IMG/VR virus record: IMGVR_UViG_3300042478_000465
Span: 1 to 20,212 of that record
DNA from: a virus
Length of the DNA stretch: 20,212 bases
Reading direction: 5' to 3' (one strand)
The translations under genes were made by a program, and so were the position numbers. This document shows positions 15,780-17,245 of this stretch, one piece after another; position 1 is the stretch's first letter; the number at the start of each line of letters is the position of its first letter. The notes beneath the pieces were generated by a model. It saw only the letters and a program-made list of their open reading frames with translations. It had not been told where the DNA came from and made no database searches.

Positions 15780-16196
15780 CTATAAATAACTTACCGCTTC
15801 GTTAATTCGCGTAAAAGCCGTTTTAAGCCGTTTTTTATCCACGTCTGATACCTGCCTACCCTCAGCCATATCAAACGCCGCTATCGACGTAATAAGCGCC
15901 TCAAATTGGATTATTTTCATTAGGTCTGTGGCATAAAACGGTCTACGGACTGGTTTATTCGTTTCGCTAGGCATAAAAGATTGATCTTTAGGAAACAGAT
16001 CAGTCAAGTCCATACCGACTGCACTAACGACTTCGTAAGCCGAGCAACCAGCAAAACACTTCAGCAGAATCCGTCCGTCATCAGTCTCAGTAATCGCTAG
16101 GCTAGGACGCTTATCCTCATGCGCTGGACAACAGGCTACCCAATGACCACGCTTACCTTGAACCTTCTCCAGCTTGTTTAGGAAATCTCCAATCAT
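15780..16196 (-). CDS. Stand-alone CHC2-type primase zinc-finger protein
   Basis: A 138-residue protein holding only the N-terminal zinc-binding part of a DnaG/T7-type primase. GHWVACCPAHEDKRPSLAIT (17-36) gives Cys22/Cys23 and His26. ILLKCFAGCSAYEVVSAVGM (43-62) gives Cys47 and Cys51, followed by DLTDLFP. The C-terminal 70 residues are helical with no Toprim or polymerase motif. It probably recognises the priming sequence and works with the helicase or host DnaG. It could instead be a remnant of a larger primase, but the clean ATGA overlap with the gene before it and the undamaged fold argue for a working small protein. Confidence 0.8.
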   Translation of the reverse strand: MIGDFLNKLEKVQGKRGHWVACCPAHEDKRPSLAITETDDGRILLKCFAGCSAYEVVSAVGMDLTDLFPKDQSFMPSETNKPVRRPFYATDLMKIIQFEALITSIAAFDMAEGRQVSDVDKKRLKTAFTRINEAVSYL

Positions 16197-16834
16197 TTCA
16201 GAATCCTCCCAAAAGGAAGATTCGGCGTGCTGGAGACCGTAATTTCATCTTCCCAACGTCTAGCGTTAAGCCATGAGGCAGGATAAGGAACATACGTTAG
16301 GTCATCAGTATCTAATTCCTGAATTATTATGGCTTTAGCAATTTCATCAAAAAGCTCATCAGTCATATCCAGCTTGCTAAATGCTTTCCTAGCAGCCTCT
16401 TTAGCTACCCTTTTAGGATAAAGTTTCCAAAATTCGGCAAAATAATCTCTGGTAGTCTCTGTATTTAATGTGATCTTGCAAGGTTTATCTAATCGATCTT
16501 GCAAAGGTTGCGAGATGGAAGAACGCAACATTGAGTAATTTGGTCTGTAGTAAAGCGTCTGATCCCAATGGTTTTCGCTCTTACGTTCAGCGATAAGTAA
16601 TCCATCTTCACGAAGACGTTTCAAAATTGAAAATATTGTTCGCTCAGACCAAAACGGAAACTGCTTTTTCCACTCAGGAATCGAGTTATAGACCCATGTA
16701 TAGCCATCATCATAGGTTTTTGCTTTGTTGCACCAGTAATGAACCTGCTGGATAACGATTGCTTCATTTAGACCATATAGCTCCGCAAGAGTAGGAAGCA
16801 CCACTAACGGATACTCGTCAATAAGAACATTCAT
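16193..16834 (-). CDS. Phage replisome organizer, winged-helix (DnaD/DnaT-like)
   Basis: A 213-residue initiator-type protein. The N-terminal 100 residues are a winged helix: a TLAELYGLNEAIVIQQVHYW helix (about 15-34), the typical DGYTWVYNSIPEWKKQFPFW segment (about 42-61), a SERTIFSILKRLREDGLL recognition helix (about 62-79), and a wing. The middle is polar, and the end has DYFAEFWKLYPKRVAKEAAR (about 130-149) and a YVPYPASWLNARRWEDE motif (about 177-193) found in phage replication proteins. It should bind the origin and recruit helicase. It is the first gene after the structured leader; only a weak GGA ribosome site precedes the ATG. Confidence 0.8.
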   Translation of the reverse strand: MNVLIDEYPLVVLPTLAELYGLNEAIVIQQVHYWCNKAKTYDDGYTWVYNSIPEWKKQFPFWSERTIFSILKRLREDGLLIAERKSENHWDQTLYYRPNYSMLRSSISQPLQDRLDKPCKITLNTETTRDYFAEFWKLYPKRVAKEAARKAFSKLDMTDELFDEIAKAIIIQELDTDDLTYVPYPASWLNARRWEDEITVSSTPNLPFGRILK

Positions 16835-16846
16835 AGCTTTTTTCCA

Positions 16847-16954
16847 ATAAAAAAAGCCCTAGGAGAGACTCTCACCGAATTACCGGCGTTGGCGGACTGG
16901 CACGTACCAGCAGAGTCCCTTCTAGGGCTTACGTGAACACGCCGCCAAGCGTGT
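16847..16954 (-). ncRNA. Structured leader RNA with terminator-like stem and possible pseudoknot
   Basis: Read on the minus strand, a small hairpin comes first (ACACGC, loop, GCGTGT; 16937-16954). Then a long stem pairs 16913-16930 with 16854-16871 over 18 positions (nine perfect pairs at the base, one mismatch and one G-U above), ending in a run of seven U, just 13 bases before the replication gene. The first hairpin's loop contains TTGGCG, and TTGGCGG (16942-16948, minus) can pair fully with CCGCCAA (16889-16895, minus) inside the large loop, giving a possible pseudoknot. It looks like an attenuator or riboswitch-like control, but no known class is recognised. Confidence 0.5.
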
Positions 16955-16959
16955 GCAAA

Positions 16960-17133
16960 TCATACCTTCGGGTTTCTTCTTTCGCAAGTCTTACAAACAT
17001 CGCTATTGTTGTACTGCGCTAACGATCTTGTTTTTTTGCAAACAGAGCAAAGCCGAGTACTAAAGTTATAAATCGTTTCCGTTCCATGTGAATCGGACTT
17101 TCGACGCAAGGGTTTTGAAGGGTCTATTTCCAA
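16960..17133 (-). CDS. Small zinc-finger protein (four Cys), start uncertain
   Basis: A frame whose end holds a clear zinc-finger: RLCSVCKKTRSLAQY, then DVCKTCERRNPKV, with Cys29-x2-Cys32 and Cys47-x2-Cys50. Given here from a TTG at 17133 (57 residues) with an AGAGG about eight bases upstream. The frame stays open to about 17243 without any ATG, and the extra part also looks like protein (LWLRKKTYQKSNLKKY, then KDFCLKLALEVNP), so the true start may be a rare codon further upstream or may be reached by frameshift from the overlapping frame at 17066-17245. It is the first gene of the minus-strand unit and could be a regulator. No family recognised. Confidence 0.5.
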   Translation of the reverse strand: MEIDPSKPLRRKSDSHGTETIYNFSTRLCSVCKKTRSLAQYNNSDVCKTCERRNPKV

Positions 17134-17245
17134 TGGGTTGACCTCTAGGGCTAGTTTTAGGCAGAAATCTTTGTACTTCTTTAGGTTGCTCTTTTGGTAA
17201 GTCTTTTTTCTTAACCATAATTGTGCCAGAGTTAGGGTGTTTCAT
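17066..17245 (-). CDS. Overlapping 59-codon frame, possible alternative gene start
   Basis: An ATG frame beginning MKHPNSGTIMVKKKDLPKEQ and ending KVRFTWNGNDL, overlapping the zinc-finger frame in another register. It has the ATG the other lacks, plus a second ATG at 17218, but no ribosome site. A TATTAT that could be a -10 box overlaps the first ATG (17244-17249), so that ATG may not be transcribed. Either this is a separate small gene, the first half of a frameshifted product, or a chance frame. Confidence 0.3.
   Translation of the reverse strand: MKHPNSGTIMVKKKDLPKEQPKEVQRFLPKTSPRGQPIGNRPFKTLASKVRFTWNGNDL

Follow-up and report, generated by a model that had tools for sequence, protein, structure and literature searches.

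A phage leader RNA ahead of replication genes with a circularly permuted C4-type core: a probable attenuator that encloses its own antisense

The C4 and CI RNAs are among the few RNA-based immunity factors known in phages. The CI RNA of the satellite phage P4 is described as pairing with seqA and seqC and so halting transcription before the replication genes are reached (PMC4825925). The C4 RNA is excised by RNase P and binds its targets through two strands, a' and b', and C4-like small RNAs of Acinetobacter have been found to be strongly expressed (PMC5320573). Here we describe a leader RNA located on the minus strand, at about 16954-16849, of a viral DNA stretch of 20,212 nucleotides (positions 1 to 20,212 of the IMG/VR record IMGVR_UViG_3300042478_000465; hereafter the window). 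It precedes replication genes, and its core is, as judged by comparative sequence analysis, a circular permutation of the C4 antisense RNA. We consider it probable that this RNA acts as a C4/CI-type attenuator of replication-gene transcription with a circularly permuted layout; the evidence for this reading, all of it derived from sequence, comprises two long-range pairings, a stem followed by a U-tract, a promoter-like site and the position before the replication genes. A literature search found no description of a permuted C4.

Read 5' to 3', the leader consists of a hairpin (P1) that presents the motif a1 in its loop, a linker that holds the motif b1, a long terminator-like stem (P2) and seven U. 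Enclosed within P2 are a hairpin (P3) whose loop, b', pairs with b1, the strand a' (CCGCCAA), which pairs with a1, and a further small hairpin (P4). Two pseudoknots are thereby formed, a1:a' (pseudoknot 1) and b1:b' (pseudoknot 2, the linker motif CACGUA with the loop UACGUG). The minimum free energy (MFE) of the leader is -52.5 kcal/mol, whereas dinucleotide-shuffled sequences give -33.9 +/- 3.3 kcal/mol (z -5.6; 0 of 200 shuffles), and in the MFE fold a' is the unpaired strand of a three-way junction. The original prediction, made from the window alone, had described much of this architecture: a 6-bp hairpin (ACACGC/GCGUGU), the full 7-nt complementarity of its UUGGCGG loop to CCGCCAA, and a terminator-like stem with seven U ahead of the replication genes, where read-through would matter, are all present. 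The stem of 18 positions that it proposed (GCCCUAG..CUAGGGC plus GGGACUCU..AGAGUCUC) has 18 pairs in the MFE fold, in which two A are paired into the U-tract, and 16 in the comparative structure; the distance from the end of the U-tract (16849) to the ATG (16834) is 14 nt rather than the 13 bases given. The pseudoknot itself was borne out as a1:a', but the description was incomplete, since b1:b' is also present. The G+C-rich P2 stem runs directly into the U-tract, as in an intrinsic terminator, and has been kept among homologues through compensatory changes. From the setting of the RNA, the early transcript or transcripts would have to pass this stem by read-through for the operon to be expressed.

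The permuted, target-enclosing form has escaped the Rfam models even though a DNA pattern of its core matched at least 120 stretches in viral contigs, most distinct matches being true copies. Among the matches listed, 93 distinct RNAs were taken and 74 representatives were aligned (alignment A1), and the element, which Rfam does not list, is conserved whole in more than 90 distinct homologues; about one hundred further phage contigs from the environment carry it. The sequence collections are metagenomic. In A1, 98.6% of the cells of a 41-pair structure with both pseudoknots are paired, 24 of the 41 pairs change on both sides (15.9 after shuffling) and the covariation is 0.411, against 0.144 in the control, while slid controls drop to about 40% paired; the compensatory changes that the original prediction had named as a check are thus abundant. 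All helices except P3 covary in this alignment, both pseudoknots included. Changes on both sides are seen in all four counted pairs of P1 (93.6% of cells paired), in 10 of the 16 pairs of P2 (99.9%), in three of the four counted pairs of P4 (99.3%) and in five of the six pairs of pseudoknot 2 (95.5%). Pseudoknot 1, with 100% of cells paired, shows swaps of G-C to A-U and of C-G to A-U, and further compensated a1/a' forms occur in single loci (UUGGCAG/CUGCCAA in L014, UUGCAGG/CCUGCAA in L209, UUGGUCG/CGACCAA in the second copy of L124). P3 and the inner pairs of P2 are constant in A1 and show compensated changes in divergent copies, CUGG/CCAG of P3 becoming CCGG/CCGG in L194-L202; the collecting patterns fix part of the core, so that its constancy is overstated. 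A U-tract of four to nine U follows in 74 of 74 rows. Judged from these comparisons, the leader RNA is real, and it is more than a pseudoknot and a terminator. A structure acting at the DNA level, such as an origin, was rejected as the main explanation, given the frequent G-U pairs and the 25-34 bits scored by the reverse strand against about 100-127 bits by the sense strand.

The pairing b1:b' deserves separate mention. A match of at least 5 nt between an RNA's own b1 linker and b' loop is present in 89 of the 93 RNAs, against 6.6% for foreign partners, and in two pairs of otherwise identical RNAs (L149/L151 and L142/L170) both b1 and b' differ, as expected if b is a matched specificity. When rates were estimated leaving one helix out at a time, pseudoknot 2 was the fastest, with 0.23 double changes per pair, P4 (0.13) and P1 (0.11) being close; this version superseded an earlier estimate of fast b1/b' change, which was dropped because the choice of pairs was biased.

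The relationship to C4 rests on several lines of comparison. A search with a C-G variant of the P3/a' core also retrieved, unsought, loci of the Rfam families C4 (RF01695) and c4-a1b1 (RF03163). In the window, as in C4, the b' hairpin is immediately followed by the a' strand (G-CUGG-UACGUG-CCAG-U-CCGCCAA-C), and an upstream target presents a1 (UUGGCGG) in a hairpin loop and then b1, with pairings that covary; the bases flanking P3, G16911 and U16896, can form a G-U pair, as in the third hairpin of the Rfam C4 model. The helix order differs. In C4 the outer stem encloses hairpin 2, then hairpin 3 with b', then a'; in the window RNA it encloses first the b' hairpin, next a' and last the other hairpin. 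The permuted core was modelled (R2, from alignment A3, with a GAAA joining loop added artificially), and this model matched 21 of 21 C4 loci at the position of C4 (24-48 bits, E 1.5e-11 to 3.3e-4); nine of these loci are confirmed as C4 by Rfam and the other 12 were assigned from sequence likeness, c4-a1b1 being confirmed in two. The control of 33 chance loci that share only the sequence pattern reached at most 21.5 bits, and the unpermuted model R1 gave no match on the C4 loci (best E 0.64). With the Rfam C4 model, none of the window, L181, L182, L192, L193, L064, L114, L145 and L171 gave a match at E values of up to 5. On this evidence, the core of the leader RNA is a circular permutation of C4, and the C4-like order identifies the pseudoknot first noticed as the a1:a' pairing and the second as b1:b'.

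Transcription of the leader would begin close to its first helix. The -10 hexamer of a promoter-like site ends 10 nt 5' of the C that precedes a1, so that the start would fall in or next to the 5' arm of P1; the original prediction had named a start downstream of the stem as the finding that would refute it, and the predicted promoter lies upstream. Among 47 distinct homologues, the mean best promoter score in the 55 nt 5' of a1 is 8.3 of 12, with 23 of the 47 at 9 or more, against means of 4.7-5.6 and one to three of the 47 at 9 or more in windows further up, and the -10 box mostly ends 9-10 nt before the same C. At the other end, 9-16 nt separate the U-tract from the next start codon in 58 of 63 distinct copies, and this codon usually belongs to the first replication gene.

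If the leader RNA is a C4/CI-type attenuator, the nascent a1 hairpin and b1 would be the target, with the antisense core (b' loop and a' strand) enclosed by the terminator stem 3' of b1, in its loop. During transcription, a' and b' would capture a1 and b1; P2 would close, RNA polymerase would stop at the U-tract and release an RNA of about 105 nt, and the replication operon would be expressed solely through read-through. New transcripts may, as in P4, also be bound at a1 and b1 by antisense RNA made in earlier rounds or supplied by a resident phage, and such pairing in trans would give a dose-dependent limit on the replication genes or the exclusion of phages of the same a/b type. Action between copies is favoured by the matched differences of b1 and b' in otherwise identical RNAs and by the contig of L124, which holds two copies with different a and b. 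This contig carries the copies in tandem on its minus strand (2574-2451 and 238-122; a motifs UUGGUCG and UUGGCGG), the first of them lying between a small HTH-like gene (5') and a helicase/methylase-like gene (3').

Several observations weigh against this explanation. Both antisense and target are in one molecule, so that pairing with its own target may sequester the antisense, and no recurring second a/b site, which would correspond to the downstream a2/b2 target of C4, was found in the 93 loci. The variation of b1/b' is by itself no proof of selection for specificity, because P1 and P4 also change fast. Finally, 20 of 22 long records that carry the RNA (25-63 kb) are without a tyrosine integrase, and the same 22 gave no match to serine recombinase, ParA or S24-repressor families; with integrases, recombinases and repressors so scarce, most of them give no evident sign that the RNA serves lysogeny. 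Such scarcity is unusual for carriers of C4-type RNAs; some of the records may be fragments, but the circular record MW202462.1 is listed as complete. It may be speculated that, if the carriers form no classical lysogens, the RNA limits replication dose or excludes like phages instead of maintaining lysogeny.

The most serious competitor is a self-contained attenuator that works only in cis, its core derived from C4 but no longer active in trans, in which read-through is set by the speed of folding or by ribosomes leaving the upstream gene. We regard this as possible but on balance doubtful. It would agree with the constant presence of target and antisense in one RNA, with the absence of a second target from the loci and with an upstream stop codon that often lies just 5' of P1 (6 nt in the window). 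It leaves unexplained, however, the matched b1/b' swaps in otherwise identical RNAs and the two copies with different a and b in L124, although neutral change could account for both, and with the predicted promoter the RNA would no longer be coupled to translation of the upstream gene. A stand-alone small RNA directed at the host or at other phages, whose position before the replication genes would be incidental, has in its favour its own predicted promoter and terminator, a length of about 105 nt and the strong expression of the Acinetobacter RNAs (PMC5320573), yet the narrow spacing of U-tract and start codon in 58 of 63 distinct copies, kept ahead of differing downstream genes, points to control in cis and makes this quite improbable.

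The original prediction had recognised no known riboswitch class in the leader. This holds, since Rfam, its riboswitch and ribozyme classes included, gave no family match to the window RNA up to E 5; a riboswitch framing is probably wrong, the pseudoknots being those of an antisense and its target. A metabolite or ion bound by the double-pseudoknot junction, with stabilization of the terminator stem as the outcome, would suit a compact two-pseudoknot junction, a terminator as expression platform and the leader position. Nearly all conserved bases are paired, however, and a conserved unpaired ligand core, as metabolite riboswitches have, is not seen, with the reservation that the collecting patterns bias this comparison; the two conserved junction bases, a G and a U, can form the G-U pair of C4. 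The pseudoknot strands moreover vary freely as matched pairs, and the core matches that of C4, whose known partners are RNAs, so that we judge a ligand unlikely. Factor-independent antitermination of the HK022 put kind, in which the RNA binds RNA polymerase and promotes read-through of downstream terminators, would also be in keeping with an early phage transcript whose predicted 5' end is structured. Contrary to what put does, the fold described here has a terminator stem and U-tract of its own at its end, its core is C4-like and Rfam gave no match; we give this explanation very little credence.

Features of the leader RNA and its surroundings in the window
Feature	Position	Strand	Sequence or remark
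Promoter-like site	16959..16987	minus	TTGCGA-17-TATGAT; -10 hexamer 16964-16959
P1 / a1 target hairpin	16937..16954	minus	ACACG-C-UUGGCGG-CGUGU; a1 UUGGCGG 16948-16942
b1 target	16930..16935	minus	CACGUA; 5' strand of pseudoknot 2
P2 5' arm, terminator stem	16912..16928	minus	GCCCUAG A AGGGACUCU
P3 hairpin	16896..16911	minus	G-CUGG-UACGUG-CCAG-U; b' loop UACGUG 16906-16901
a' strand	16889..16895	minus	CCGCCAA; 3' strand of pseudoknot 1, pairs with a1
P4 hairpin	16873..16888	minus	CGCCGG-UAAU-UCGGUG
P2 3' arm	16856..16872	minus	AGAGUCUCU C CUAGGGC
U-tract	16849..16855	minus	U7, intrinsic-terminator end; directly 3' of P2
Possible alternative hairpin	16835..16862	minus	GCUUUUUU...AAAAAAGC; P2 end and U-tract with ribosome-binding region
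Gene of DnaD-like helicase loader / replication initiation protein	16193..16834	minus	First gene after the RNA; phrog_6493, E 3.5e-36

The end of the terminator may also be engaged in another pairing. In 25 of 63 distinct downstream regions an alternative hairpin can form between the end of P2 with the U-tract and the ribosome-binding region (for example GCUUUUU..AAAAAGC, GGUUU..AAACC and UAAGUCU..AGACUUA), against a mean of 17.1 and a maximum of 23 in 1000 controls with swapped arms; it is absent in the other 38. Such pairing is a possible translational layer in some lineages, and a translational switch as the main mechanism was set aside, the excess being significant but limited to 25 of 63, a side feature. 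An antiterminator formed by the P2 5' arm and P1 was likewise dropped: it amounts to three pairs seen by eye, which are lost in UUGACGG types.

The neighbourhood of the element varies. Relatives of the window's DnaD-like protein in viral contigs are preceded by the same RNA, sometimes with a small gene intervening. Homologous loci are followed by varied genes, most of them of early or replication type, and preceded by small zinc-finger-like, Cro-like or nuclease genes; an upstream reading frame frequently stops some 10-25 nt short of P1 (6 nt in the window). Two overlapping small frames lie 5' of the RNA on the minus strand of the window, one for a basic 59-aa protein (17066-17245) and one for a 57-aa protein (16960-17133) with a zinc-finger-like CxxC..CxxC pattern (phrog_38162, E 2.9e-6). 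Families of these two proteins recur 5' of the RNA, in 32 and 35 loci, respectively, and the proteins may be partners of the RNA or form an early pair of regulators.

A pattern scan of a genome collection gave seven matches, one true copy (a prophage copy in Polynucleobacter sp. UK-Kesae-W10, L181) and six chance ones. When 398 genomes of the same family were scanned by covariance search, L181 was recovered together with two divergent copies (L192, L193) ahead of HNH endonuclease genes; among 369 genomes drawn from the class, no copy was found beyond the known one. In a phage collection only two records, both of one metagenomic phage, have similar DNA, and none was found in plasmids. Another copy of the RNA is carried by MW202462.1, a metagenomic phage record listed as complete and circular. 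Divergent copies stand directly 5' of an HNH endonuclease gene (L192, L193, L195, L198, L200) or of a GIY-YIG-like gene (L197); the HNH-linked ones are without a long U-tract and retain a hairpin (GGUCU..AGACC) immediately after the fold.

Taken more broadly, we tentatively entertain the idea that this is a widespread RNA module that nests target, antisense and terminator in one molecule of about 105 nt and sets a type-specific replication dose or superinfection exclusion in phages mostly without a recognised integrase and repressor, b1/b' (and a1/a') serving as interchangeable specificity codes. The arrangement suggests that opening the C4 fold at a different helix can turn it into an attenuator; it would offer a one-piece system for testing antisense-controlled termination, for which the matched b1/b' swaps are a ready natural set of specificity variants, and it raises the question of the role of a C4-type RNA in phages where no integrase was found.

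Compared with the C4 RNA of phages P1 and P7 (RF01695), the window RNA has in common the core G-CYGG-(b' loop)-CYRG-U-CCGCCAA-C in a three-way junction, and in both a' is complementary to a1, a UUGGCGG exposed in a hairpin loop, and b' to b1. It differs in that the closed second hairpin of C4 is here the open outer stem and terminator, whereas the outer stem of C4 is here the small closed hairpin P4. With c4-a1b1 (RF03163), isrK (RF01394) and seqA of P4 it shares the succession of a1 hairpin, b1 and terminator, and the layout of the a1 hairpin is that of the GGGCUUGGCGGCCC of classical C4 loci. The order in the classical locus L226 is a1 hairpin, b1, terminator, C4, a2 hairpin, b2; there and in L260 the terminator is a separate hairpin with C4 after it, whereas in the window the C4-like core lies within the terminator's loop. 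By eye, b1 in the classical loci L260, L247, L226, L235 and L204 overlaps a small hairpin that competes with the next terminator hairpin, and binding of C4 at b1 could favour termination in these loci. Similarly to the CI immunity of P4, a C4-type RNA precedes replication genes, in the window that of a replication initiator or helicase loader; however, the CI RNA is released by processing of a longer transcript and is flanked by targets on either side, whereas the leader RNA has its own promoter-like site and terminator and a single target, carried by the same molecule of about 105 nt. Plasmid rep attenuators of the pT181 kind also place a terminator before replication genes and control it by RNA-RNA pairing, the antisense being a counter-transcript from the opposite strand; the logic of terminator and pairing is shared with them, but here the antisense would be on the same strand and in the same molecule as its target.
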